Shown one piece after another: positions 29,023-41,675 of a DNA stretch of 48,715 nt (its first letter is position 1; the number at the start of each line of letters is the position of its first letter). The position numbers were made by a program, and so were the translations under genes. This DNA comes from an uncultured Pirellulaceae bacterium (GTDB lineage: Bacteria > Planctomycetota > Planctomycetia > Pirellulales > Pirellulaceae): positions 1 through 48,715 of the forward strand of contig CALFWL010000080.1 in the NCBI GenBank assembly GCA_937928215.1, read 5' to 3'. The notes under the pieces were generated by a model. It did not search any database. It was not told where the DNA came from and saw nothing but the letters and a program-made list of their open reading frames with translations.

Positions 29023-29538
29023 ATGAAATGCCAAAAGTGTGAGAAGCCTGCCACGTTTCACATCACCGACCTGACGGGGGACGAATTGCTGGCCCTCCAT
29101 CTGTGCCCGGACTGCGCGAAAGAGTACTTGCAGACGGAGGACAGCGAGGAACCTACCGCGCCGACGATGACCGGGATGCTCAATCAGCAGTTGAAATTGG
29201 AACAGACGGCAGAAGATCTGAAGGCGCTCGACGCGAGGAAATGCCCAATTTGCGGAATTTCGTTCTACGAGTTCCGTCACGCCGGTCGGCTGGGATGCCC
29301 GCATGACTACGTTTTCTTCGGGGATGAACTCGATCCGCTGCTGGTAAATGTGCACGGCGAAAGCAAGCACACCGGCAAAGAGCCCAAGCGCGGCGTCCGT
29401 GATGCCGAGTCGCAAACGGAGCTCATTCGCCTGCGTCGCGAGATGCGCGAAGTGATTGAACAGGAAGACTATGAGCGTGCAACCGAACTTCGCGATCAGA
29501 TTCGTACGATCGAAGGCGAGGGGCAGAGTGACCGTTAA
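29023..29538 (+). CDS. mcsA: McsA-like activator of protein arginine kinase
   Basis: The 171-aa protein has two zinc-binding CxxC pairs at the N-terminus (MKCQKCEKPATFHI and HLCPDCAKEY), a second pair-type segment CPICGISFYEFRHAGRLGCP, and a C-terminal UvrB/UvrC motif (LRREMREVIEQEDYERATEL). This is the architecture of McsA, which activates the McsB arginine kinase and is also a metal-stress protein in Firmicutes. mcsB follows 57 bp downstream on the same strand. The usual partners ctsR and clpC are not in the window. Confidence 0.93.
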   Translation: MKCQKCEKPATFHITDLTGDELLALHLCPDCAKEYLQTEDSEEPTAPTMTGMLNQQLKLEQTAEDLKALDARKCPICGISFYEFRHAGRLGCPHDYVFFGDELDPLLVNVHGESKHTGKEPKRGVRDAESQTELIRLRREMREVIEQEDYERATELRDQIRTIEGEGQSDR

Positions 29539-29595
29539 CAGAGTGGTCGTTAAAGAACGCAGTTTCATTGCTTCGATTGATCCCCGGGAGTCCAC

Positions 29596-30672
29596 ATGCT
29601 GATCGACGACATGGCGAGCCGCTGCGGAGAGTGGCTGCGCGGGAGCGGTCCGGAATCTGATATCGTGATGAGCAGCCGAATTCGGCTGGCTCGTAACCTA
29701 GCCGATTATCCGTTCATCCAGCGTTGCACCGATATCGATCGGGCGAACATCGAATCGACGGTGCGCGAACGGTTGGAGCGTAGCGAGAGCCTGAAAGATC
29801 TGACGTTCATCAACGTTGCGGATCTTGAACTGATCGATCGACAGTTTCTGGTGGAACGTCAGCTGATCAGTCGTGAACACGCGAACTCAGACGGTGCTAG
29901 AGCGGTCGCGATTGACAGTAATGAACGTTGCAGCCTGATGGTGAATGAAGAAGACCATCTTCGAATTCAGGTCATGAAAAGCGGTTTTGATCTGGAAGGA
30001 GCTTGGAAGCAGATCGACAGTTTGGACGATTCGATCGAAGAACAGCTGACCTATGCCTTCAACCCGAACTTGGGCTACCTGACGGCGTGCCCTACCAATG
30101 TTGGTACCGGGATGCGAGTCAGCGTACTGGTTCATCTGCCGGCGTTGGTGATTACCAAGCAGATCGAAAAAGTTTTTCGTAGCTTGCAACGAATCAACTT
30201 GGTCGTGCGTGGTTTGTACGGCGAGGGGTCGCAGGCGATGGGCGACTTCTACCAAGTCAGTAATCAAGTGACCTTGGGAAAAACCGAGGCTGAGTTGGTT
30301 CAGCAGGTGGGGGATGTCGTGCCGGTGGTGATCGACTACGAACGCAAGGCGCGCGATTTCCTGATCAACGAGCAGCAGAACGATTTGTTTGACCGAGTCA
30401 GTCGAGCTTATGGCACCTTGCAGAACGCTCGCCAGATCAGCAGCGAGGAAACGATGTTCTTGCTGTCACGAGTCCGAATGGGAATCAACTTAGGGCTGAT
30501 TGGCGACCTCGAAATCCCCAAAATCAACCAGCTGTTCATTCATACTCAGCCTGCTCATTTGCAAAAGCTGTATCAGTCGACGCTCGATACGGATGAGCGA
30601 AACGTCGAGCGTGCCAAATATTTGAAGGGGCAGCTGAAGCTCAGCCGCGAAGGCGATCCTGATCAGAATTGA
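29596..30672 (+). CDS. mcsB: Protein arginine kinase McsB
   Basis: McsB phosphorylates arginine residues in proteins, in Bacillus marking them for ClpCP degradation. The 358-aa phosphagen-kinase-like domain has VMSSRIRLARNLADYPF, the active-site MVNEEDHLRIQ, LTACPTNVGTGMRVSVLVHL and GLYGEGSQAMGDFYQVSNQ, all conserved, plus the C-terminal helical region with RVRMGINLGLI. Catalytic Glu and Arg positions look intact. It follows mcsA, so an operon is likely. With no CtsR or ClpC nearby, the target system must be encoded elsewhere or differ from that of Firmicutes. Confidence 0.95.
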   Translation: MLIDDMASRCGEWLRGSGPESDIVMSSRIRLARNLADYPFIQRCTDIDRANIESTVRERLERSESLKDLTFINVADLELIDRQFLVERQLISREHANSDGARAVAIDSNERCSLMVNEEDHLRIQVMKSGFDLEGAWKQIDSLDDSIEEQLTYAFNPNLGYLTACPTNVGTGMRVSVLVHLPALVITKQIEKVFRSLQRINLVVRGLYGEGSQAMGDFYQVSNQVTLGKTEAELVQQVGDVVPVVIDYERKARDFLINEQQNDLFDRVSRAYGTLQNARQISSEETMFLLSRVRMGINLGLIGDLEIPKINQLFIHTQPAHLQKLYQSTLDTDERNVERAKYLKGQLKLSREGDPDQN

Positions 30673-30884: not shown

Positions 30885-32009
30885 ATGACCAACACTCCAA
30901 ATAACGACCTCGATTCGGCAATCGCAACGGCGAAAAAGCAGCTCGATCAGCATACCGTTGAGATTGTTCAGCGACATTTCCACGAATCGACCGGGTGCCC
31001 ATTCTGGCTGCAGAAGAAGTCGGAACTGAACTTCGATCCGTTGACCGAAGTGAAATGCTATGACGATCTGAAGAAGTTTCCTCTGTTCGAAGACGATTGG
31101 CTGCGAGGCGGTCCGGTCGAACGATGGCGGATGAAAGACCACGCTGATCGACCGACTTACGTTTTTGAAACAGGCGGTACGACGGGTGTGCCGAAGAGCC
31201 GAGTCGTCGTCGATGATTTTCGCACCGACTACGAAGTCTTCAGTCACACGCTGCCTGACGAGTATTTTCCTCGCGGAGGAAACTGGTTGATGCTGGGGCC
31301 GTCTGGGCCAAGGCGTTTGCGGTTGGCGGTCGAACATCTGGCTCAGTATCGCGGCGGAATCAGTTTTTGCATCGACCTTGATCCTCGCTGGGTCGTCAAG
31401 CTGATCAAGAAAGGCTGGATGGACCATCTGGAGGAATACAAAAAACACTGCATCGATCAGGCGATCACGATCCTGACGGCCAATCACAACATCAAGTGCA
31501 TGTTCGGCACGCCCAAGTTGATCGAGTCGCTATGCCTAGAGCTGGAAGAGCGAGACATGACGCTGGCGGAAACGGGTGTGACGGGAATTTTTTCAGGCGG
31601 GACGGAATTCACGCCTCAGTGGACTCGGTATTGCGTCGAAGAATTGTTTGGCGGTCCACCAGAAGAGAGTGGCATCTACATGACGCCGACTTATGGCAAC
31701 ACACTGATGGGCCTAGCGTGCAGCAAGCCGGTGACTGCCGAGGAGAAGTACAAGATTTCTTATTACGCGCCGCAGCCACGTGCCGTCACGGAAGTGATGG
31801 AGTTTGATGACTCGAATCAGGCGGTCGGTTACGGCGAAACGGGTCGTGTGAAATTGACAACACTGACGCCCGAGTTTTTTGTGCCGGGATTTCTTGAGCG
31901 TGACGAAGGCGAACGCGAAAAACCTTTCGACAAATTCCCATGGGACGGTGTCAGCGGCGTGCGTCCGTATCATAAGCTGGCGTCCGCGACGACGGTGGGT
32001 GTGTACTAG
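30885..32009 (+). CDS. AMP-binding (ANL superfamily) acyl ligase-like protein
   Basis: Expected to adenylate a carboxylic acid. The phosphate-loop motif FETGGTTGVPKSR is at about residues 92-104, GIFSGGTEFTP is the A4-like region, and YMTPTYGNTLMG matches the aromatic/A5 motif. At 374 aa it stops before the small C-terminal lid of full acyl-CoA synthetases, a size close to PaaK-like and LuxE acyl-protein synthetase domains. The next two genes encode an aldehyde dehydrogenase and an iron alcohol dehydrogenase, so acid activation followed by reduction, or the reverse, is a reasonable model. Substrate unknown. Confidence 0.75.
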   Translation: MTNTPNNDLDSAIATAKKQLDQHTVEIVQRHFHESTGCPFWLQKKSELNFDPLTEVKCYDDLKKFPLFEDDWLRGGPVERWRMKDHADRPTYVFETGGTTGVPKSRVVVDDFRTDYEVFSHTLPDEYFPRGGNWLMLGPSGPRRLRLAVEHLAQYRGGISFCIDLDPRWVVKLIKKGWMDHLEEYKKHCIDQAITILTANHNIKCMFGTPKLIESLCLELEERDMTLAETGVTGIFSGGTEFTPQWTRYCVEELFGGPPEESGIYMTPTYGNTLMGLACSKPVTAEEKYKISYYAPQPRAVTEVMEFDDSNQAVGYGETGRVKLTTLTPEFFVPGFLERDEGEREKPFDKFPWDGVSGVRPYHKLASATTVGVY

Positions 32010-32091
32010 CGGCGAGCGAAGTGCCTCGGACTGACGAGTGACCAAGAGCCGTTGAGATTTTCTAAGTAATAACCTCACGACGAGAGTAGTG

Positions 32092-32159
32092 TCACGCAAA
32101 GGCGCAAATTTCGCGACGTCCGATGAGAAAGGCTTTGCGTGCTTCGCACCTTTGCGTGA
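32092..32159. repeat. Inverted repeat of the cacgcaaagg type
   Basis: TCACGCAAAGG (32092-32102) and CCTTTGCGTGA (32149-32159) are perfect arms. The minus-strand translation reads SRKGAKHAKPF and FAPLRD, a phrase I know from many spurious genes that arise from a widespread non-coding repeat. It fills the gap between the acyl ligase-like gene and the aldehyde dehydrogenase gene. Confidence 0.65.
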
Positions 32160-32189
32160 TACCATTAATCAAAAATTGGAAGCGGAAAC

Positions 32190-33629
32190 ATGTTAGATAT
32201 TCCTGTCATTCGTTGGGGAAAGCCTTACGAGTCGCTCGAGAAAACGGAAGTCGTCCATTTCAATACGGGGGAGCCGATCGCGTCCGTCAGTGCGGCCAAT
32301 GGTGGGTTGGTTTCGCGCGATATGCGGAAGGCTCAACAGGCTCGCAATCGGCTGCGGGAATTCTCTTGTGAAGATTTGATTGCCAAGGTTGGCAAAGCGG
32401 CGGATTGTTTTGAGAACGATACCCTGACGTTGGGCAATGGAACTCAGTCGCCGGACGAGTTTGTACATCATCAGTCCGCGTCGACGGGCTTGCCCGAACA
32501 TATGTGTCGCAGCAACATGGCGAAGAATTGCTTTGTTATGCGGAACATGACCGAGATTCTGGACTGCCTGACTCGCGGGTTGGACTTGGGCATTCTTACC
32601 AATGGTTACGGAACCGAATCGCGCGGGGTGATCGTTAGTTATCAGGCTCAGACGCCTGTGCTCGGTGCCGTATTGCCCTCGAATTCGCCGGGTGTGCACA
32701 CGCTTTGGCTGCCCGCGATCCCGTTGCAGATGGGGTTGGTGCTGAAGCCCGGATCGCAGGAGCCATGGACCGCGTATCGCGTTGCAGCGGCGTTCGAAGC
32801 GGCAGGAATTCCGCCGGAAGTGATTTCCCTTTATCCGGGCGGCCACGATGTGGGCAGTGCTTTGATGACCAGTTGCGATCGAAGCATGATTTTCGGCAGT
32901 CAGAAAACAATCGATCAATACGCGGGCAATCCGGGAGTCCAAGTTCACGGGCCGGGTTTTTCCAAAATTTTTCTGGGTGACGATTGCGTCGACCGTTGGG
33001 AAGAATACATCGATGTGATGGCAGAAAGCATTTACATCAATGGTGGTCGCAGTTGCATCAACTGTTCGGGCATCTGGGCATCGCGCCACACCAAAGAGAT
33101 TGCGCAGGCGCTCGCGGAACGGTTGGGGCCGATTGATGCGTTGCCTCCGGATGATCCGAAGGCCGGTCTGGCCGCGTTTACTGTCCCCGGAATGGGCAAG
33201 GCGGTTTGGGATATGATCAAACAAGACCTTGAGGCCGACGGAGTGACAGATTGCACCGCTGAGTACGGTGACCGTGTGGTGGAATTGGAACGCGCTTCCT
33301 ACCTGCGGCCAGTGATTGCTCATGCGTCCAGCCCCGAGTGTGAGATCGCCAACAAGGAGTTCATGTTCCCCTTCGCAACGGTTGTCGAATGTCCGCAGGC
33401 GAAAATGATCAAAGCAGCCGGACCGACGTTGGTGGGAACCGCGATCACTGATGACCCGAATTGGATCGATCAGCTTTTGTCGGCGACTAACATCGACCGT
33501 TTGAACGTCGGGCCGGTGCCGACCAACCGATTGAACTGGCTTCAGCCTCACGAAGGGAATATCATTGATTTCCTGTTCCGGTCACGAGCCTACCAGGTCG
33601 CCGAGAACAAAGTCGCTGCCATGGCGTAG
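32190..33629 (+). CDS. Aldehyde dehydrogenase superfamily protein
   Basis: This 479-aa protein belongs to the NAD(P)-dependent aldehyde dehydrogenase superfamily. The nucleophile cysteine is in YINGGRSCINCSGIWASR (about residue 287), AVLPSNSPGVHTLWLPAIPL and LVLKPGSQEPWTAYRVA form the cofactor-binding part, and NKEFMFPFATVVE closes the site. A canonical catalytic-base Glu motif is not obvious, which is more like acylating (CoA- or acyl-enzyme-using) members. It lies between the acyl ligase-like and alcohol dehydrogenase genes. The ATG has a GGA-rich ribosome site upstream (GGAAGCGGAAAC). Confidence 0.88.
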   Translation: MLDIPVIRWGKPYESLEKTEVVHFNTGEPIASVSAANGGLVSRDMRKAQQARNRLREFSCEDLIAKVGKAADCFENDTLTLGNGTQSPDEFVHHQSASTGLPEHMCRSNMAKNCFVMRNMTEILDCLTRGLDLGILTNGYGTESRGVIVSYQAQTPVLGAVLPSNSPGVHTLWLPAIPLQMGLVLKPGSQEPWTAYRVAAAFEAAGIPPEVISLYPGGHDVGSALMTSCDRSMIFGSQKTIDQYAGNPGVQVHGPGFSKIFLGDDCVDRWEEYIDVMAESIYINGGRSCINCSGIWASRHTKEIAQALAERLGPIDALPPDDPKAGLAAFTVPGMGKAVWDMIKQDLEADGVTDCTAEYGDRVVELERASYLRPVIAHASSPECEIANKEFMFPFATVVECPQAKMIKAAGPTLVGTAITDDPNWIDQLLSATNIDRLNVGPVPTNRLNWLQPHEGNIIDFLFRSRAYQVAENKVAAMA

Positions 33630-33739
33630 TTGGATCAGGGCCGTGGCGCGTTGCTTGTTGGCTTCGTGGTCTTGCCTCAAGCCGCAGCGCCAATCATTGG
33701 CCGCGTTTTCTTTTAACTCTGTTTCATCCCTGCCGCGTC

Positions 33740-34897
33740 ATGCAACCATTCGATTTTGTCATGCGGACGCGCGTTGTGTCGGGTGAAAACTCACTCGCGC
33801 GAATAGGGAGGTTGGCCGCTGAGCTGACAACCGGACGAGTGTTGCTGGTGACCGATCCCGGCATCGTTGCGGCCGGTCACGTCGAGCGGGCTGTTGCGGC
33901 GATTCAAGCCGAGAATCTTGAGGTGCATGTATTCGATGGAGCGGCCGAGAACCCGACCACCGAAGATGTTGATCGTGGCGTGCAGATCGCGAAAGAGGTT
34001 CAGCCGGATCTATTGATTGGCCTAGGTGGCGGAAGCTCAATGGATTGCGCGAAGGGGATAAATTTTATCCACTGTTGCGGCGGGACGATGCATGACTATG
34101 CGGGCGTCGGAAAAGCGACCGCTCCTTTGCTGCCAATGATTGCTGTGCCGACGACTGCGGGAACGGGTAGCGAGCTTCAATCGTTTGCGCTGATTTCTGA
34201 CGCGAAGACTCATGTGAAGATGGCGTGCGGCGATCCAGCGGCAAGTTGTCGGTTTGCGATTCTAGACCCTTTGTTGACGCTGACTCAGCCACGTAACGTC
34301 ACCGCGTTGACGGGGATCGATGCGATCTCTCATGCGATCGAGACGATGGTGACCACTCGTCGCAATCCGGTCTCCCGAATGTTTTCAGTCACGTCTTGGA
34401 AGTGCCTGGCCAATTATTTCGAAGTCGTCATGAATTCGCCCGATGATGTTGAAGCTCGATCAGCGATGCAACTGGGGGCGGCTTGGGCCGGGCTGGCGAT
34501 CGAGAATTCGATGTTGGGAGCCAGTCACGCGTTGGCTAATCCGTTGACTGCCAAGTTTGGAATTGCGCATGGCCAAGCGGTCGGATTGATGTTGCCTCAT
34601 GTGATTCGCTTCAATGGGCGAGATGAAGGTTGCCAGCAAGCTTACGCAGAATTGTTGTCGTACGGAATCGCAGCAGAGAAAGTTTCGAACACCAAGAACG
34701 CGGCGGAAACGCTTGCGAAGCGAGTTGCTCATCTGGTCGAGGTTGCCGGAATGAAGCTGAAGCTATCCGATTTGAACGTGACGGAAGAACATTTTTCCGC
34801 CATGGCAGCGGATGCGTCAAAGCAGTGGACGGGAACGTTTAACCCTGTGCCAGTCGACGAAAACGACCTGCTGCAACTTTATCGGAACGCCGTGTAG
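33740..34897 (+). CDS. Iron-containing (type III) alcohol dehydrogenase
   Basis: The 385-aa enzyme interconverts alcohol and aldehyde with NAD(P)H and a divalent metal. GLGGGSSMDCAKGINFIH is the nucleotide-binding loop, VPTTAGTGSE follows, and metal ligands are seen in LTGIDAISHAIE (Asp, His), NSMLGASHALANPL (His) and FGIAHGQAV (His). It lies 110 bp downstream of the aldehyde dehydrogenase and completes an acid/aldehyde/alcohol trio. No signal peptide, so it acts in the cytoplasm. Physiological substrate unknown. Confidence 0.93.
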   Translation: MQPFDFVMRTRVVSGENSLARIGRLAAELTTGRVLLVTDPGIVAAGHVERAVAAIQAENLEVHVFDGAAENPTTEDVDRGVQIAKEVQPDLLIGLGGGSSMDCAKGINFIHCCGGTMHDYAGVGKATAPLLPMIAVPTTAGTGSELQSFALISDAKTHVKMACGDPAASCRFAILDPLLTLTQPRNVTALTGIDAISHAIETMVTTRRNPVSRMFSVTSWKCLANYFEVVMNSPDDVEARSAMQLGAAWAGLAIENSMLGASHALANPLTAKFGIAHGQAVGLMLPHVIRFNGRDEGCQQAYAELLSYGIAAEKVSNTKNAAETLAKRVAHLVEVAGMKLKLSDLNVTEEHFSAMAADASKQWTGTFNPVPVDENDLLQLYRNAV

Positions 34898-34953
34898 GCT
34901 GAGGTGTTAAACTTGAGACGTCAGCAAGAACGAGCAAGTATTCAGAATCTCCC

Positions 34954-36120
34954 ATGACCTTTCGCCGAAAAAACGCATCGAAATTGTTTGGGTTGGCAGC
35001 AGTTTTTTTCACCTGCCTAGCCTTCGCGTCTGAAACAACTGCTCAATCGAGCGACGAAGGTTGGCATTGGTTCCGGGGCGATGCAGGATCATCCGGCGTC
35101 GCAAAAACAACGCTGCCCGCCGAGCCCGAAGTGATTTGGAAGCACAAGGTGGACAAAGGCTCTTTTGAGAGCACGCCCGTCATTATCGCAGCCGATAAGC
35201 GTCCTCCGATGGTGGTCATCGGTGACTTGGACGGTCGGATCATCGCGTTGGACTTCAGGGGAGGGAAGTTGCTGTGGGAACGAGACCTTGGTGAACTTGG
35301 TTTCACGGCGGCGGCCGTTTCTCACCAAGGGAGGATCTTCATTGGTGACTTTGATGGTTTCTTTCATTGCCTTGATCTGGATGGCAAACCCATTTGGAAA
35401 TACCAGGCAGAAGGTGAGGTCATGGGAAGCGCAAACTTCTACAAAGACTTGGTCCTCTTTGGTGCCCAAGACGGATGTTTATATGCGGTGAATCGTGAGA
35501 CCGGAAAATTGGTTTGGAAATATGAGGCCGATGACCAGATTCAATGCTCCACCACCGTGGTCGACAATCGCGCGTTTCTTGCTGGCTGTGATGGGAAACT
35601 ACACATCATCGATCTGGATACTGGTAAAGATGTCGCCAAGGTTAATATCGAATCACCAACCGGAACGACCCCTGCCACGATGAAGGATCGAGTCTACTTT
35701 GGCACGCAGCAGGGAGCGTTTTTGGCCATCGATTGGAAGCAAGCAAAGATCGATTGGCAACGTGACGATCCGCTGGGCGGGACGACGATCGTCGCGTCGG
35801 CGGCCGTGAGCGATCGACAGGTTGTTTACTCGGTCCGAAATCGTCAGGTGATTTCGCTCGATCCCCGCAACGGCAAAGAACGTTGGGTCACGCGGCTGAA
35901 AAGTAAGGCGGATGCTTCGCCTGTGATTGTAGGTGACCGAGTGTTGATTGCGACAACCGATGGCCGATTGTTTCTGCTCGATCAGGAAACGGGTGATTCT
36001 GTCTGGCAGACGCAGCTCAACGGGTCGATTATTGGCTCGCCCGCCGTGGCATTCGAACGATTAGTCGTTGCGACTGATCGGGGGCTGGTCTATTGTCTAG
36101 GTTCATCTAAAAAAGAATAA
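34954..36120 (+). CDS. Exported PQQ-like beta-propeller protein
   Basis: The 388-aa protein starts with a signal peptide (LFGLAAVFFTCLAFASETTAQ) and then carries about seven propeller blades marked by tryptophan-docking repeats such as GGKLLWERDLG, DGKPIWKYQAEG, TGKLVWKYEAD and TGDSVWQTQL. It resembles BamB/PQQ-type propellers, but no alcohol-dehydrogenase active site is visible, so cofactor binding is uncertain. It ends 14 bp before the radical SAM gene, which makes one transcript likely, although one product is periplasmic and the other cytoplasmic. Confidence 0.9.
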   Translation: MTFRRKNASKLFGLAAVFFTCLAFASETTAQSSDEGWHWFRGDAGSSGVAKTTLPAEPEVIWKHKVDKGSFESTPVIIAADKRPPMVVIGDLDGRIIALDFRGGKLLWERDLGELGFTAAAVSHQGRIFIGDFDGFFHCLDLDGKPIWKYQAEGEVMGSANFYKDLVLFGAQDGCLYAVNRETGKLVWKYEADDQIQCSTTVVDNRAFLAGCDGKLHIIDLDTGKDVAKVNIESPTGTTPATMKDRVYFGTQQGAFLAIDWKQAKIDWQRDDPLGGTTIVASAAVSDRQVVYSVRNRQVISLDPRNGKERWVTRLKSKADASPVIVGDRVLIATTDGRLFLLDQETGDSVWQTQLNGSIIGSPAVAFERLVVATDRGLVYCLGSSKKE

Positions 36121-36134
36121 GCGGCGCGAGAAGC

Positions 36135-37448
36135 ATGGCTGAAAGCTCAAAAACCGAAGTTGGCAGTTACTTCATTTCCAACTACCCCCCGTTTTCTCAA
36201 TGGACGGGAGATAAATTGGACGATGTCGAACGCGCGCTGTCGCAACCGCCTCGGCCTGACGTGCCGTTAGGTTTGTATCTGCACATTCCGTTCTGCCGGA
36301 AGCGTTGCAAGTTCTGCTACTTCAAAGTTTTCACCGATCAAAACGCCAAAGACATTGAAGCGTATGTTTCTGCCCTGTGTCGCGAGATTGAACTGGTCAG
36401 CCAGCAACCGGTGATGGGAGACCGGCCGTTTCGTTTCGTGTACTTCGGTGGTGGCACTCCGTCTTTTTTGAGCGTGCGTCAGCTGCGATCGTTGGTCGAG
36501 CGCCTTCAGGCGAACATCAATTGGGACAAGGCCGAAGAAGTCACCTTCGAGTGTGAGCCCGGCACGTTGCAAGAAAGCAAGGTTCACGCACTGCGTGAGC
36601 TTGGGGTGACTCGGTTGAGCCTCGGGATCGAAAACTTTAGCGATTCGATCCTTGAGGAAAATGGACGGGCTCATCTGACGAAGGAAGTGTACAAAGCGTG
36701 GGATTGGATTCAGGCCGCAGACTTTGCCAACGTGAACATCGACTTGATCTCCGGGATGGTCGGAGAAAACTGGGATAACTGGAAACACAACATCCGCGAA
36801 ACGATCAAGTTGTCGCCCCATAGTGTCACGATCTACCAGATGGAGCTGCCCTTCAACACGGTTTACAGCAAAGATATTCTCGGCGAAAAAATTGAAACGC
36901 CTGTCGCCGACTGGGACACCAAACGCGAGTGGCTCAACTACGCCTACGACGAATTGCAATCGGCAGGTTACAAGATCAGCAGTGCTTACACGATGGTCAA
37001 GGATCTGAAAGACGACGTCGTCAGTTTCAGCTACCGTGACAATTTATGGCAGGGCTCCGATTTGTTGGCGACCGGTATCGCCAGTTTTGGACATGTTTCG
37101 GGGGTTCATTATCAGAACAAACCCGACATGAAACAGTATCAGGCTGACTTGCTGGAAGAAGGGAAACTGCCATTGGGTCGAGCCTTCACTCCGACCGTTC
37201 ATCAGGCGTTGATCCGTGAGATGATACTTCAGTTAAAGCGAGGATTTCTTGAGGTCGACTATTTTCGTCAAAAATTTGATGCCGACATTGTCGATCACTG
37301 GCGCGAAGAATTTCAGGCTCACCAGGCCGACGGAATGTTGACGTTTGATCAGGACCGAGTCGAATTGACTCGTAAAGGATTCCTGCACGCGGACTCACTG
37401 CTGCCGGTGTTTTTTGAATCCGAGCATCAGGGTGTACGCTATACGTAA
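36135..37448 (+). CDS. HemN-like radical SAM protein
   Basis: The 437-aa protein has the radical SAM CxxxCxxC cluster motif in YLHIPFCRKRCKFCYF (about residues 52-67), the SAM-binding YFGGGTPSFLS, and the GVTRLSLGIENFSD and HSVTIYQMELPFNTV segments shared with HemN/HemW-type coproporphyrinogen oxidase relatives, plus a HemN-like C-terminal domain. Canonical HemN has CxxxCxxCxC; here the residue after the third Cys is Tyr-Phe, closer to HemW-like and uncharacterised groups, so heme synthesis should not be assumed. It follows the propeller gene closely and precedes the lipoyl carrier. Confidence 0.85.
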   Translation: MAESSKTEVGSYFISNYPPFSQWTGDKLDDVERALSQPPRPDVPLGLYLHIPFCRKRCKFCYFKVFTDQNAKDIEAYVSALCREIELVSQQPVMGDRPFRFVYFGGGTPSFLSVRQLRSLVERLQANINWDKAEEVTFECEPGTLQESKVHALRELGVTRLSLGIENFSDSILEENGRAHLTKEVYKAWDWIQAADFANVNIDLISGMVGENWDNWKHNIRETIKLSPHSVTIYQMELPFNTVYSKDILGEKIETPVADWDTKREWLNYAYDELQSAGYKISSAYTMVKDLKDDVVSFSYRDNLWQGSDLLATGIASFGHVSGVHYQNKPDMKQYQADLLEEGKLPLGRAFTPTVHQALIREMILQLKRGFLEVDYFRQKFDADIVDHWREEFQAHQADGMLTFDQDRVELTRKGFLHADSLLPVFFESEHQGVRYT

Positions 37449-37535
37449 AGTTGACACGGCACCGATCGGCGATTGGGTTTTCGATTTTCAGCCTGCTTGA
37501 TTTCCACCGACAATGGCTTTGGCCAGATTCACGCA

Positions 37536-38000
37536 ATGCAAACGCTGACCTTCATGATGGGCGAATTCGCGGCGGAGTTTCCTGCTGATATTTGTTATGC
37601 GAGAAATCACATGTGGGCTCGCACGATCGATGGGCAGGCCGGTCAGTTTCAATTTGGATTTACCGCGTATGCCGTTCGACTGCTTCAGGACGTGTACTTT
37701 CTGGATTGGTTGTTTGATGCACCGGGGGACTTGCGCGATGGGCAGGAGATTGGCACGATTGAGAGCAAGAAAGCGGAAAGCTCGTTGTACTCGCCAGTGG
37801 AAGGTCAACTGTTGGCTTTTAACGATGAACTGATGGAAGACCCGTCTGCGATTAACGTCGATAAATACGGTGACGGGTGGCTGTTTACGATGAAATGCAG
37901 CGGTTCGCCGGACTTCATGGATGCCAATGGCTATTTGAGTTATCTTGAAGATGTTTGGGTAAAAACGCAGCGTACAATCAAGGGCCAGCTGAACGATTGA
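37536..38000 (+). CDS. GcvH-like lipoyl carrier protein
   Basis: The 154-aa protein has the glycine-cleavage H-protein fold: RNHMWARTIDGQ opening, QFGFTAYAVRLLQDVYFLDW and GTIESKKAESSLYSPVEGQL, where the second Lys of SKK is the predicted lipoylation site. Standard GcvH is about 125-130 aa; here the tail (FMDANGYLSYLEDVWVKTQR) is a little longer. No gcvP or gcvT is nearby. Its neighbours are a radical SAM gene and a ferredoxin gene, so it may carry lipoyl-bound intermediates in another pathway, as lipoate-binding proteins do in sulfur oxidation. I start at ATG 37536; ATG 37554 is possible. Confidence 0.87.
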   Translation: MQTLTFMMGEFAAEFPADICYARNHMWARTIDGQAGQFQFGFTAYAVRLLQDVYFLDWLFDAPGDLRDGQEIGTIESKKAESSLYSPVEGQLLAFNDELMEDPSAINVDKYGDGWLFTMKCSGSPDFMDANGYLSYLEDVWVKTQRTIKGQLND

Positions 38001-38125
38001 GCACAAGGAGCATTTGGTGTGCTGGGAGGGAGGTCCACTCCGTCGAGTACCAAGGAGTTCGCACGTGACGATTTCGAATGGGAAGGGGAGCAATGGAATG
38101 GGGAAGAATGGAATGGGAGGGGGAG

Positions 38126-38194
38126 GCTCTGTCCGACCCGATAGCTGGCTTACGTTTGTCATTGAACCCGGCTTGGGCGGAGCCGCGCCCTCCC
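38126..38194 (+). repeat. Dispersed GC-rich repeat (copy B)
   Basis: This 69-bp unit matches 10916-10984 (opposite strand) at 57 of 69 positions by eye. Its end merges into the 30-bp tandem array that follows. Confidence 0.8.
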
Positions 38195-38290
38195 AGAATG
38201 GCTTGGGCGGAGCGGTGCCCTCCCGGAACGGCTTGGGCCGAGCCGCGCCCTCCCAGAATGGGCTTGGACGGAGCCGCGCCCTCCCAAAGC
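38170..38290 (+). repeat. Four copies of a 30-bp GC-rich repeat
   Basis: Units beginning GGCTTGGGCGGAGCCGCGCC start at 38170, 38200, 38230 and 38261. Each contains the palindromic core GGGCGGAGCCGCGCCC-type hairpin, with small substitutions (GGAGCGGTGCCC in unit 2). The array fills the gap between the lipoyl carrier and 4Fe-4S genes. Apparent open frames across it are not real genes. Confidence 0.85.
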
Positions 38291-38386
38291 TTGCTTGGAC
38301 TCCTACTATTCAACCGTCGATGAGCAGCTCGGTTTCATCAAGTGATCGACGAATTTCTGAAAACCTCAAACCATAGCCTTTCTACC

Positions 38387-39457
38387 ATGGCAAAACGACT
38401 GTCAGTCATTATCTCACAGGCTCAAGGCAAGAATCCTGCCAAGCGAAAGCTGGAAGAGGACATTGTCGCTGGCTTGCTGTTCGAGAACGGTGTCGATGTG
38501 ACCATCGTTCCCAACCTGTACGACATTCAAGCGGACAGCACCAGCGTCGTTGCGTTACAGGGCGTCAGTGGGAACGCAGTGCTCTGTTCGTGGCTGTTCG
38601 AACGAGCGGCGCGGTGGGTGTTGGATCGCCACGGAGTGCATGGCCAACGTGGAACCGTGTTGTTACAAACCGACGAACAAGACGAAGACGCGGACGAAGA
38701 GGAAGACGGTCCAGAGGCCACGGACGGACAGAAGGATCGCGTGATTGATTCTCGGGAGATTCCTGATCGCAAAATTTACTGCCTTGATCTGAAGGCTTCG
38801 AACTCCGCAGACGATTTCATTGCCGAAGTGAAACGGATTCAGGCTGAGAATGCAGTGCAGTTGGTGGGGCTGGCCGATGTCTTGAATGCCGCACCGCTTG
38901 CCACCGCAGGAAACCCGAATGGAAGTAATCAGGCGGGGCAGGCGAAATCACGTGCCGAGTCCGAATCGGCCGTCAATCGTATCGAGGAAACATCCGGTCG
39001 CCGTTGGTATCCGGTCATCGATTACAGTCGTTGCACCAACTGCATGGAGTGTATCGATTTTTGTCTGTTCGGCGTGTACGGTGTCGACCGGATTGATACG
39101 ATTTTGGTCGAGGAACCGGATAACTGCCGCAAGGGCTGCCCGGCGTGCAGCCGAGTCTGTCCTGAGAACGCGATCATGTTTCCGCAGCACAAAACACCGG
39201 CGATCGCGGGATCGATGGATGTCGCTGAGAGTTTGAAGATCGACTTGTCTCAGTTGTTTGGAGCACCGACGGAGGGTAAGTCAGCTGCCGAACTCGCAGC
39301 GCTTGAGCGAGACGAGCAGTTGATGATGGCGGGACGCGACGCAGTGGGCTTGGCAAGTTTGAACGAACGGGCCTCGCGATCAAAACGGCCCGTCGGTTCC
39401 ACTCAAAACGACGATCTGGACGATCTGGTGGACGAGCTCAACGATCTGGACTTGTAA
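38387..39457 (+). CDS. 2x[4Fe-4S] ferredoxin-like protein with unknown N-terminal domain
   Basis: The 356-aa protein has a ferredoxin module near residues 215-265: CTNCMECIDFC (CxxCxxCxxxC) and CRKGCPACSRVCPENAI give two four-iron clusters, so it probably moves electrons. The N-terminal 100 residues (LSVIISQAQGKNPAKRKLEE onward) have no motif I can name, followed by an acidic linker (EDADEEEDGPEATDG). The C-terminal tail is rich in Asp (DDLDDLVDELNDLDL). The ATG at 38387 is preferred to the GTG at 38342. It may supply electrons to the neighbouring radical SAM or dehydrogenase enzymes. Confidence 0.85.
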   Translation: MAKRLSVIISQAQGKNPAKRKLEEDIVAGLLFENGVDVTIVPNLYDIQADSTSVVALQGVSGNAVLCSWLFERAARWVLDRHGVHGQRGTVLLQTDEQDEDADEEEDGPEATDGQKDRVIDSREIPDRKIYCLDLKASNSADDFIAEVKRIQAENAVQLVGLADVLNAAPLATAGNPNGSNQAGQAKSRAESESAVNRIEETSGRRWYPVIDYSRCTNCMECIDFCLFGVYGVDRIDTILVEEPDNCRKGCPACSRVCPENAIMFPQHKTPAIAGSMDVAESLKIDLSQLFGAPTEGKSAAELAALERDEQLMMAGRDAVGLASLNERASRSKRPVGSTQNDDLDDLVDELNDLDL

Positions 39458-39570
39458 CACGAACTGTCGTTGAAGAAACGGATTCGATGCAAGGCCCAGA
39501 CGCAAGCAAGCAAGCAAGCGAGTGAACACCTTCGCGACGGATCGATTTGCTGGCTCGTGCTTCGTGTTTG

Positions 39571-39675
39571 TATTGCTCGTGCCCGTATTGTTCACGCGTG
39601 TATTGTTCACGCGTGTATTGCTCACGCGTGTATTGCTCACGCGTGTATTGCTCACGCGTGTATTGTTTGCGCGTA
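39571..39675 (+). repeat. 15-bp tandem repeat, seven units
   Basis: The unit TATTGCTCACGCGTG repeats from 39571 to 39675. The middle five units are almost identical (one C/T change) and the outer two have diverged. It sits between convergent genes. Frames crossing it give pentapeptide repeats (REQYT), which are artefacts. Confidence 0.9.
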
Positions 39676-39709
39676 CGTTCTCTTTGAAACAAATCGGTTC
39701 GGCACCCGA

Positions 39710-40375
39710 TCACGCATCGACCAGACAGCCGAAGACGCGGTAAGCGTCAGCCAGCAGGTCTTTGATCTCATCCGCTTTGACAATTCTTCCCGACCGGTAA
39801 AAGCAAATCGAGTTTGCGATTCCCTCGACACTGATACCCGGCTGCAACTCAAAGAACTCCAGGACCGGCGGTTGAAAAAAAACGCGAATCCGTTCTTCGT
39901 TGGGGCCTTTGAGGACAAAACGCTTTGAAAATTCCGGGTGGCTGTCGAAGTCGATGTCTTGAAACCCCAGTAGTCCTCCGACGCGATCAAAAATTCCTTC
40001 CGGACGCATTGAAAATTCTGGACAGCTTAATTGATCAGACGACAACGAAGCCACGGTTTGCTTGACCGTGCGTTGGTTTTTGCCGCTGCCCGTCGTGAAC
40101 TGATAGTCGAAGATGCAGATGCGAACCTCATCGGTCACACCTTCGATCACATTGTTGACCTTTCTCGCTCGGCCTTGGTTGAACAGATTGAAGCCCGAGT
40201 GATTGGTGATCTGGTCGAGGGTACCTGACTCGTACCAAGTCAGCCCCAGTTCATGGGCTACTTCTTCTGTCGCGGCGCGACGTTTCTTGGCCGCGATGTG
40301 GGAATGAATCATTCCGTAGACGATCACCAGCAGTACTAAACTGATGAACAGCAATGGAATCAGTTGCTCAATCAT
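39710..40375 (-). CDS. Small membrane-anchored hypothetical protein (221 aa)
   Basis: One N-terminal transmembrane helix (LIPLLFISLVLLVIVYGMI, residues 5-23) is followed by a charged stretch and a cytoplasmic-looking beta-rich domain (EVRICIFDYQFTTGSGKNQR, FDRVGGLLGFQDIDFDSHPE). It lies 7 bp downstream of the radical SAM gene at 40383, so the two are probably co-transcribed. The family is unknown to me, and the close spacing is the only clue to its role. Confidence 0.75.
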   Translation of the reverse strand: MIEQLIPLLFISLVLLVIVYGMIHSHIAAKKRRAATEEVAHELGLTWYESGTLDQITNHSGFNLFNQGRARKVNNVIEGVTDEVRICIFDYQFTTGSGKNQRTVKQTVASLSSDQLSCPEFSMRPEGIFDRVGGLLGFQDIDFDSHPEFSKRFVLKGPNEERIRVFFQPPVLEFFELQPGISVEGIANSICFYRSGRIVKADEIKDLLADAYRVFGCLVDA

Positions 40376-40382
40376 TCGACGG

Positions 40383-41675
40383 TCAGCTTTTCAACTGGAT
40401 CAGGTCTTCGCGGGTTGAATTATTCGCCGAAGGCTGCTCGATCTTGCCAGGATCTTCCCAGTTATCCGCCGAGAAATGCTCGCCATAGACGCCATAATCA
40501 TGGAAGGCAATTTTTTTGGCGATTCGATAGGCCCAGCTTTTTTCTGGAATCGGTTCCACGTCCGGCATGTATTGCGAGGGATGCCGATTGGCCGCCCGCA
40601 GTTCCGCCAAGGCTGTTTTGCGAGCCGTCGAATCTTTCGCTCCGTGGCGGTCGGCCAACGCTTCGATCAAGTCAGGGCGCTCCAGTGCGATGCAGCCCCG
40701 AGTGTGTTGTGCGGCGGTTTTTCGAAAGTCCTTCAGGTACTCCGATTCGTTGAAGACTTGGTCGAGTGGTCGTTCGTCGTGAATCGACTCTTTCGCGAAT
40801 TGGATGATCGGACATGGTTCGATGTCACCCCATGGGCTGATGTGATGAGTGAAACCTGTCGCTGCCGGGCACAAAGCATTTCCGTCGGCATCGTAGTACG
40901 CGTCGATCACGATGATGGGCTTCTTGCAGCGCATGTCGACGACAAACTGCCGAGCCTTTCGTTGCTGCGCTGGCGTCAGCGCCAGTTCCGGTGCGGCGTC
41001 GGGACCGACGGGGCGATAAATATGGAACCACGTGTACATCACGCCCATCTCGATCAGTCGGTCAACCCATTCCTCACGCAGCAAGTCATCAAAGTTGGTT
41101 TGGCACAGGCTGGTGCAAACCCCCGTCATGACTTTATTGTTCAGACAGTTTTCGATTCCTCGCATCGTGTCGGAATACACGTTCGCTTTGCCACGACGTT
41201 GGTCACTGATGATTTCGGAACCTTCGACGCTGATCAGTACCGTCACGTTGCCGCATTTTCGCAAACGTTTGGCGACCTCGTCGGTGATGAAGTGCCCGTT
41301 GCTGAAAACCTGAAAGTAGGCATCCGGGTGAGCTTCCAAAATCTCAAACAATTCCTTGTGCATGAACGGTTCACCCCCCAGCAATCCAAAGAACGAGTTC
41401 CCCATTTCTTTCGCTCGATCAATCATCCGATTCATCGCGGTGACATCGATTTTCTGTTGCTTGGCGGACACATCGACCCAGCAACCCTGGCACCGTAAGT
41501 TGCAGCTATTGATGATTGAGATATAAAGGTATGGGGGAAAGAATTGACCGTTGCGTAGTCGTTTCTTGTGGGCCTGTACGCTACGCAGGCCTCGCACGCC
41601 CATGTTCCATGCCAGCTTCCAGACGAGTCGTTTGTCAGTCTCTAGGAGCAATCGCTTTGCGAATCGAAGATACAT
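40383..41675 (-). CDS. Radical SAM protein
   Basis: The 430-aa protein has a radical SAM CxxxCxxC in IINSCNLRCQGCWVD (about residues 52-66) and GLLGGEPFMHKELFEILEAH (SAM-binding GGEP), then CPAATGFTHHISPWGDIEPC, a SPASM-like C-terminal cysteine cluster, and TRGCIALERPD with a further Cys. It resembles uncharacterised planctomycete/deltaproteobacterial proteins distantly related to HpnH and maturases. It is transcribed toward the lipoyl/ferredoxin group, with the membrane gene at 39710 behind it. Substrate unknown. Confidence 0.88.
   Translation of the reverse strand: MYLRFAKRLLLETDKRLVWKLAWNMGVRGLRSVQAHKKRLRNGQFFPPYLYISIINSCNLRCQGCWVDVSAKQQKIDVTAMNRMIDRAKEMGNSFFGLLGGEPFMHKELFEILEAHPDAYFQVFSNGHFITDEVAKRLRKCGNVTVLISVEGSEIISDQRRGKANVYSDTMRGIENCLNNKVMTGVCTSLCQTNFDDLLREEWVDRLIEMGVMYTWFHIYRPVGPDAAPELALTPAQQRKARQFVVDMRCKKPIIVIDAYYDADGNALCPAATGFTHHISPWGDIEPCPIIQFAKESIHDERPLDQVFNESEYLKDFRKTAAQHTRGCIALERPDLIEALADRHGAKDSTARKTALAELRAANRHPSQYMPDVEPIPEKSWAYRIAKKIAFHDYGVYGEHFSADNWEDPGKIEQPSANNSTREDLIQLKS

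Follow-up and report, generated by a model that had tools for sequence, protein, structure and literature searches.

The predicted gene group of the window, by which we mean the whole stretch of 48,715 nucleotides analyzed here, is real and belongs to a larger system, and with a probability of about 0.5 we read it as part of a split pathway of ~17 genes leading to a phenolic terpenoid (meroterpenoid) lipid. Judging from the sequences, a chorismate-derived phenol is probably joined in it to a ring-closed terpene chain by radical enzymes that work with a lipoyl carrier protein. The pathway apparently belongs to several bacterial phyla and has no earlier description; a targeted search of the open-access literature found none.

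Gene set and its two modules

All the genes named in the original prediction were recovered from the list of open reading frames (ORFs) in the places it had assigned to them, and profile searches gave matching families.

30885..32009, + strand: Lig, adenylating enzyme (phmmer against the PDB, E 8e-36 to EhpF, 3l2k/3hgu)
32190..33629, + strand: ALDH-family protein (PF00171, E 4e-24)
33740..34897, + strand: iron-type alcohol dehydrogenase, FeADH (PF00465, E 3e-48; PF25137, E 3e-39)
34954..36120, + strand: BamB/PQQ-type propeller (PF13360, E 6e-44; hydrophobic N terminus, judged by eye)
36135..37448, + strand: HemNl, HemN-like radical SAM enzyme (HutW/ChuW, E 1e-59, below cut-off)
37473..38000, + strand: GcvHl, orphan GcvH-like lipoyl carrier (PF01597, E 2e-19)
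38342..39457, + strand: Fdx, N-terminal domain of no named family plus 2x[4Fe-4S] (Fer4 families)
39710..40375, - strand: 221-aa protein (no family match)
40383..41675, - strand: second radical SAM enzyme, Twitch/SPASM-type (PF04055, E 2e-16)

Module A is represented in the window by GcvHl, Fdx, and the second (SPASM-type) radical SAM enzyme. Its partners outside the window are a fusion of DUF116 with a polyprenyl synthase (PPS), a DxDD squalene-hopene-cyclase-like protein (SHC), a prenyl toroid, a CxCC GTPase, and a cysteine desulfurase, and by neighborhood comparison its clusters occur in Planctomycetota, Verrucomicrobiota, Acidobacteriota, and Hydrogenedentota. Module B comprises Lig, ALDH, FeADH, the propeller, and HemNl, to which other loci add a chorismate-lyase-fold protein (ChoL), a halogenase-type flavoenzyme, an aryl-CoA ligase, and a thioesterase; the run Lig-ALDH-FeADH-(propeller)-HemNl is recurrent in its own right. 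The window's genome has the system split over two loci, with genes of both modules mixed in each: C80 holds the five module B genes of the window beside GcvHl, Fdx, and the SPASM gene, and C62 holds SHC, PPS, and the toroid (A) with ChoL, SSF, 4HBT, and ABC genes (B). The original prediction was made without sight of these partners elsewhere in the genome, namely, the terpenoid enzymes and the chorismate-lyase-like gene. Two genes of the stretch fall outside the set. The 221-aa protein, which had been counted as a membrane protein of the group, has no partner among 36 compared neighborhoods and no family match in profile searches, so that membership was dropped and the protein probably lies outside the system. 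A DUF3592 gene was excluded as well, as it has no partners among the compared neighborhoods.

Putative aromatic acid activation, HemNl, and ChoL

The nearest relative of Lig with a solved structure is EhpF, and its PF00501 match is below the cut-off. The gene adjoining Lig in module B loci codes for the ALDH-family protein, in which GRSC[IV]N is found in 13 of 15 members longer than 400 aa; by sequence, ALDH is the probable reductase partner of Lig, and FeADH probably catalyzes the aldehyde-to-alcohol step. In griseoluteic-acid phenazine synthesis, ehpF and ehpG are adjacent, according to an excerpt of PMC11278526. The same arrangement of an EhpF homolog next to an ALDH gene is seen here, with ALDH likened to EhpG by family and position, although a third gene, FeADH, follows and no phenazine genes were seen. 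By this analogy, Lig and ALDH are a putative pair for the activation and reduction of an aromatic carboxylate in the EhpF/EhpG manner. The propeller lies between FeADH and HemNl in L210, L211, L212, L213, L216, L217, L224, and L038 and is missing from that interval in L209, L214, and L215.

HemNl matches HemN (1olt) and NocN (9p2u) in the PDB, and all 20 family members have CxxxCxxC with a Tyr at position -6 from the first Cys. At the position that we take to be that of the fourth Cys of HemN (CX3CX2CXC), none of the 20 sequences has a Cys. The protein reaches 187.8 bits against the HemN family (cut-off, 324.95) and also scores under the curated cut-offs of HemW and HutW; with the fourth Cys missing as well, we rejected a plain HemN or HemW. 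The likeness is instead to the class C methylases (NocN/NosN, CoeI), as HemNl matches NocN, keeps the Tyr that stacks on SAM-II, and does not have the fourth Cys, although no RiPP or polyketide synthase genes were seen beside it. In NocN, the stacking residue is Tyr34 and the first Cys is Cys40 (excerpt of PMC13266988), and a HemN-like enzyme methylates an anthraquinone (excerpt of PMC9714029). As HemN also has the stacking Tyr, this residue alone cannot separate the two, and from its sequence HemNl is a possible class C radical SAM methylase.

ChoL has no relevant match in Pfam or NCBIfam, while its predicted structure (pLDDT 88) has as best PDB matches the DUF98 protein 2nwi (Foldseek E 1e-7) and UbiC with bound product, 1g81 (E 4e-6), at 15-19% identity. 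Arg88 and Glu186 are invariant in 8/8 sequences, and they are candidate counterparts of the catalytic pair R76/E155 of UbiC. A chorismate-lyase/UTRA fold is also found in GntR effector domains, so the fold is no proof of ChoL activity. The gene is close to both modules, being 54, 75, 170, and 321 bp from PPS in G000, G121, G061, and G130, respectively, and less than 300 bp from HemNl in 14 of 24 ChoL genomes. In the separate distance test for Lig, one copy per genome was used, which in G148 was the one on the HemNl contig.

A chorismate-lyase fold with a polyprenyl synthase next to it calls to mind the pair of precursors from which ubiquinone is made, and the product could be an isoprenoid-quinone-like redox carrier, a special case of the phenolic lipid with a 4-hydroxybenzoate ring methylated by HemNl and oxidized by the flavoenzyme and with a cyclized side chain. 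The anthraquinone methylation mentioned above would agree with this, as would the class C enzyme that reportedly acts in 8-methylmenaquinone formation. We consider it improbable, since the acid-to-alcohol trio, the lipoyl carrier, and the cysteine desulfurase have, to our knowledge, no counterpart in quinone synthesis.

Lipoyl carrier, radical chemistry, and terpenoid partners

The true start of GcvHl may be an internal ATG. Lys 100, in the lipoylation site motif, is invariant in 44/44 sequences, so that GcvHl shares the lipoyl-domain family and the modifiable Lys with GcvH of glycine cleavage, but it scores under both GcvH family cut-offs (77.8 bits against 115.85 and 85 bits against 117) and was rejected as a spare glycine-cleavage protein. 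The genome has a separate GcvH on contig C7, followed directly by a 958-aa ORF that by size and position would be GcvP, which makes GcvHl an extra copy. Each protein of the set comes from a large superfamily, and the group might be read as ordinary unrelated neighbors (spare HemN, spare GcvH, a generic ferredoxin, and generic dehydrogenases). This is very unlikely, given scores that do not reach the curated HemN, HemW, HutW, and GcvH cut-offs and a conservation and co-occurrence far beyond chance; coincidental neighbors were rejected on the latter ground.

Fdx is the 2x[4Fe-4S] protein that had been predicted, with an N-terminal domain missing from that description. It was found in 37/149 genomes at E<=3.1e-17 (a count that leaves out 27 of 64 matches) and has at least 558 relatives by tblastn at E<=1e-3; eight planctomycete loci have, next to it, small genes (107-133 aa) that cluster with it. 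The second radical SAM enzyme has CxxxCxxC in 65/65 sequences and PDB matches to BlsE and SkfB. After the core motif, only C269, C288, and C328 are conserved, so from its three C-terminal cysteines the predicted enzyme may be of a Twitch/short-SPASM rather than a full SPASM type.

Among the partner genes, the cyclase has DxDD in 49/49 sequences. Hopanoid synthesis uses SHC plus the HpnH radical SAM enzyme, and the likeness lies in a DxDD class II cyclase adjoining a radical SAM enzyme; as differences, the cyclase is below the SHC cut-off (105.4 bits for the L058 protein against 431.1 for TIGR01507) and the cluster has a polyprenyl synthase. Moreover, 14 of 42 PPS genomes (several incomplete; G057 listed as 99% complete) have no squalene/phytoene synthase (PF00494) match, and in 8 of these 14 the fetched stretch contains the SHC-like gene, which argues against squalene as the general substrate. 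We did not adopt it, and by sequence the cyclase is probably independent of squalene; the PF00494 proteins of the other 28 genomes may serve carotenoids or hopanoids. No confident fold match was found for the DUF116 domain.

The best matches of the toroid profile are the beta subunits of RabGGTase and FTase, and Y52, D295, and E297 are invariant. We placed on the alignment what we take to be the zinc-ligand positions of prenyltransferases (His, with Asp and Cys), and the His position of the protein prenyltransferase beta subunits aligns with a Tyr, for which protein S-prenylation was not adopted. A sulfur-containing terpenoid, with sulfur loaded by the desulfurase, carried by the lipoyl protein, and made into a thioether by the toroid or a radical SAM enzyme, would fit these thiol-alkylating relatives, the CxCC found in 67/67 module A GTPases, and a NifS-like (cysteine desulfurase) gene detected by tblastn in 28/80 named loci (which partly repeat G-handle loci: L097=L058 and L127=L045). 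The Tyr speaks against it, and the desulfurase may merely serve Fe-S assembly; we regard this product as quite improbable.

For the phenolic lipid that we prefer, we infer the following steps from the gene set and catalytic motifs. ChoL would convert chorismate to 4-hydroxybenzoate, which, or a carboxylate derived from it, Lig would turn into an acyl-adenylate, to be reduced to the aldehyde by ALDH in the manner of the EhpF/EhpG pair and to the alcohol by FeADH. HemNl would place a one-carbon unit on the ring, like class C radical SAM methylases, and the flavoenzyme would oxidize or halogenate it. PPS would build the chain, which the DxDD cyclase, possibly helped by the single-barrel toroid, would close into rings, and the second radical SAM enzyme, supplied by Fdx, would make a further modification. 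The lipoyl arm of GcvHl would carry an intermediate as a thioester or thioether, and the propellers, symporter, glycosyltransferase, and ABC genes could act in product handling or export. Tentatively, the product may even be a new class of membrane lipid in planctomycetes, verrucomicrobia, and acidobacteria, with a cyclized polyprenyl chain and a reduced, radically methylated 4-hydroxybenzoate ring, made through intermediates held on the lipoyl carrier, although we hold this specific structure to be doubtful. The chemistry is open to testing at several points (formation of the phenol from chorismate, reduction of the acid to the alcohol, the two steps by radical SAM enzymes, lipoyl carrier, and terpene cyclase). 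If true, the pathway would assign a role to DUF116, to a GcvH-like family, and to the Fdx family, would extend the lipoyl swinging arm beyond the 2-oxoacid, glycine-cleavage, and sulfur-oxidation systems, and could uncover a missing lipid of biomarker value.

Distribution and co-occurrence of the modules

Among 149 Planctomycetota genomes, PPS (counted at E<=1e-45) is present in 36, Lig in 32 (E<1e-100, leaving out 9 of 41 matches that are weaker, the best at 5e-43), and both in 26 genomes from 16 families (p 1.8e-15, ignoring shared ancestry). Within module B, Lig is present in 31/31 HemNl genomes, and Lig and HemNl are both present in 24/24 ChoL genomes; ChoL is missing from 8/32 Lig genomes, several of them drafts. 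Gene calling misses genes, which affects the gene counts of loci.

The modules could also be two linked but separate pathways, with A making a cyclized terpenoid lipid alone and B an aromatic pathway that often shares its genomes or loci. PPS is indeed found without Lig in 10/36 PPS genomes of Planctomycetota and in 19/21 of the Verrucomicrobiota draw (PPS counted at E<=1e-60), where the association has p 0.055 (ignoring shared ancestry); six Lig genomes (of 32) and five ChoL genomes, several of them drafts, have no PPS; and in many genomes A and B are at different loci. Nevertheless, the window's genome and G121, of the same family, mix the genes of both modules, four genomes have ChoL and PPS only 54-321 bp apart, and A stands beside B in L099, L138, and L149, which come from other phyla, so we consider the separate pathways unlikely. 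The single pathway to a phenolic terpenoid is favored by the mixing at both loci of the window's genome, the proximity of ChoL to PPS, the co-occurrence in genomes, and the recurrence of A across phyla. The original prediction of one uncharacterized pathway thus gains support from the module A clusters in three further phyla and from the co-occurrence of A and B, and the neighborhood conservation that it proposed to check is kept in Planctomycetota and other phyla, including Verrucomicrobiota; what does not hold is a strict link between the modules, as many genomes carry A without B.

In other phyla, Lig was found in 31/35 genomes chosen through Fdx versus 3/145 Verrucomicrobiota drawn evenly, a contrast biased upward because the 35 were picked by hand from entries sorted by their resemblance to a Lig-bearing planctomycete, and the control comes from a single phylum. 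The 35 (24 Verrucomicrobiota, 10 Acidobacteriota, and one Hydrogenedentota) come from 36 of the 80 named loci, chosen outside Planctomycetota, and one of them, G168, is also in the control. Among the B12-type loci, G107 has Lig. Records with Fdx, a SPASM-type gene, and Lig also exist for the cultured genera, in Verrucomicrobium sp. BvORR034 and Brevifollis gellanilyticus.

Genes of the window and their module A neighbours

All the genes claimed for this region in the original prediction were found in the window as open reading frames, as described there. The window, contig C80, belongs to a genome of 4.1 Mb in 247 contigs (G000), and the features relevant here are as follows.

29023-30672: two adjoining genes directly upstream of the pathway genes, resembling McsA and McsB (arginine kinase) by eye
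30885-39457: seven co-directional genes, for an adenylating enzyme (Lig), ALDH, Fe-ADH, a propeller, a HemN-like radical SAM enzyme (HemNl), a GcvH-like lipoyl carrier (GcvHl) and a 2x[4Fe-4S] protein (Fdx), with successive gaps of 180, 110, 56, 14, 24 and 341 bp
Between Fe-ADH and HemNl: the propeller of this run, BamB/PQQ-type
38170-38286: tandem repeat, 30-bp unit, 3.9 copies, inside the 341 bp that separate GcvHl from Fdx
39569-39665: tandem repeat, 15-bp unit, 6.5 copies, between Fdx and a 221-aa gene
40383-41675, strand opposite to the seven-gene run: second radical SAM gene (Twitch/SPASM type, called SPASM below)

Fdx had matches at E<=0.001 in 64 of 149 genomes of the phylum, Planctomycetota, 37 of them at E<=3.1e-17, the weaker matches covering chiefly the Fe-S part. 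Neighbourhoods were fetched from 36 of the 37 strong-match genomes, leaving out the window's own, and tblastn with window proteins as queries recovered GcvHl in 24/36 and the second radical SAM gene in 20/36. Gene clustering of these neighbourhoods added a fusion of DUF116 to a polyprenyl synthase (PPS), a squalene-hopene-cyclase-like protein (SHC), a single alpha-alpha toroid, a CobW-type GTPase and a cysteine desulfurase (NifS), which together with GcvHl, Fdx and the SPASM enzyme we call module A. A scan of genome contigs with the Fdx alignment gave at least 589 stretches, of which at least 558 contain a relative at E<=1e-3; the best 80 of these stretches come from Verrucomicrobiota, Planctomycetota, Acidobacteriota and Hydrogenedentota, plus a few records otherwise labelled. 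Within these 80 loci, many of them on short contigs, we counted CobW in 53, SPASM in 51, PPS in 50, GcvHl in 48, the toroid in 43, and SHC and NifS in 28 each (tblastn E<=1e-15, one query per family).

A B12/MiaB-type radical SAM protein also recurs in five of the 36 Fdx loci. Its gene adjoins Fdx or PPS in L046 (10348-11883), L054, L061, L062, L065 and L101, and as no Twitch/SPASM gene was found within the fetched stretches of these loci, it is possibly a functional replacement.

Module B and its association with module A

Lig matched 41/149 genomes at E<=1e-20, and 32 of these matches (E<1e-100) are clearly separated from the remainder. HemNl is present in 31 genomes of the same draw, all 31 with Lig; the two lie within 14 kb in 18 (13 families), far apart on one contig in 6 and on different contigs in 7. 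Gene order in this set, which we call module B, is recurrent across 20 Lig/HemNl stretches and most complete in L212 and L218:

Start: two propellers, SSF symporter, Lig, ALDH, FeADH, propeller, HemNl
Middle: chorismate-lyase-fold protein (ChoL), flavoenzyme, GT4, 4HBT thioesterase
End: small membrane protein, PaaK-type ligase, ABC ATPase, FtsX-like permease

The flavoenzyme matches Trp_halogenase (PF04820) and, below cut-off, CmlS, QhpG and geranylgeranyl-reductase models, with a WxWxIP motif in 12/12. For the PaaK-type ligase the matches, also below cut-off, are to BagE/FevW and FlxY models.

The idea that these genes form one uncharacterised pathway is supported by the recurrence of module A genes across phyla and by the co-occurrence of PPS (36 genomes) and Lig (32) in 26/149 genomes from 16 families (p 1.8e-15, a value that ignores shared ancestry, the family count being the safer guide). 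PPS and HemNl occur together in 25/149. All 24 genomes with ChoL (of 149) have Lig and HemNl, and 19 have PPS; ChoL lies <=300 bp from HemNl in 14 of them, and in a further four its distance to PPS is 54-321 bp. Lig was also present in 31/35 genomes reached via 36 Fdx loci outside Planctomycetota, but in 3/145 evenly drawn Verrucomicrobiota (with the centre genome included).

Physical linkage is found as well. The window holds module B genes together with GcvHl, Fdx and SPASM, and contig C62 of the same genome has PPS, SHC and the toroid beside ChoL, SSF, 4HBT and ABC genes. On C62, a fusion of uroporphyrinogen decarboxylase with a HemD-type domain (L091 14586-16523) lies near the SHC/PPS genes. 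G121, a member of the window genome's family, has the system at three separate places (L033, L092, L226), again with genes of both modules mixed. L038 has FeADH, propeller, HemNl, GcvHl, Fdx, SHC, PPS and ChoL in a row. Lig and ALDH adjoin module A in L099 (Verrucomicrobia), L138 (Opitutae) and L127/L045 (Planctomycetota), and Lig is beside it in L050; L149 (Acidobacteria) contains HemNl, flavoenzyme, 4HBT and PaaK-type ligase.

Against a strict link, 21 of these 145 Verrucomicrobiota have PPS and only 2 of the 21 also have Lig (p 0.055); module A is therefore wider than module B. Of the planctomycete genomes that carry the B12-type radical SAM gene, G041, G098 and G114 have PPS without Lig and G107 has both. 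We conclude that the modules belong together at least often, and our reading of genomes with module A alone is that they have a second pathway version, lacking this aromatic branch or using a different one. The component proteins fall in known families, and we found no description of this gene combination in an open-access library; we would place the system among meroterpenoid or isoprenoid-lipid pathways as a new variant, with a real chance that its product class is new.

Predicted chemistry

Judged by their motifs, the pathway proteins look catalytically intact. The lipoyl Lys of GcvHl is kept in 44/44, and among proteins above a set length we found DDxxD in 73/73 and CxxCxxC in 72/73 PPS, CxxxCxxC in 65/65 SPASM enzymes, DxDD in 49/49 SHC, the P-loop and CxCC in 67/67 CobW GTPases and the SAC[TS] loop in 10/25 cysteine desulfurases. 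HemNl has CxxxCxxC and a Tyr at -6 in 20/20 and a fourth Cys in 0/20.

The closest solved relative of Lig is EhpF, which with EhpG reduces a phenazine carboxylate. HemNl resembles HemN and NocN. In published work, ehpF (AMP-binding) and ehpG (ALDH) adjoin in a Proteus phenazine operon (PMC11278526), HemN-family class C enzymes transfer one carbon to sp2 carbons using two SAM molecules (PMC13266988), and CoeI, which is HemN-like, methylates an anthraquinone (PMC9714029).

ChoL (180-197 aa) gave no relevant match in Pfam or NCBIfam, and a profile from eight sequences retrieved the DUF98 structure 2nwi (E 5e-6). The AlphaFold model (pLDDT 88) also matches 2nwi best, followed by UbiC chorismate lyase with product. 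GntR-type effector domains are in the same match list and have the same fold, so the fold does not prove chorismate lyase activity. R88 and E186 are invariant (8/8); the UbiC active-site pair is Arg76 and Glu155. PPS adjoining a chorismate-lyase-like gene is reminiscent of ubiquinone and its two precursors.

The SHC-like cyclase scores below the SHC cut-off; among solved structures SHC is its best relative. A search for squalene/phytoene synthase in 42 genomes with PPS (33 from the phylum-genome PPS search, 9 from named loci) found no match in 14, including G057, listed as 99% complete; the SHC-like gene is in the fetched stretch of eight of these (G025, G031, G057, G079, G098, G114, G163, G178). 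This leads us to infer that the product of the adjoining PPS is the cyclase's substrate. The predicted model of DUF116 is confident (pLDDT 89) and had no Foldseek match at E<=0.001; this N-terminal domain of PPS (e.g., L091 10345-10944) has seven conserved cysteines.
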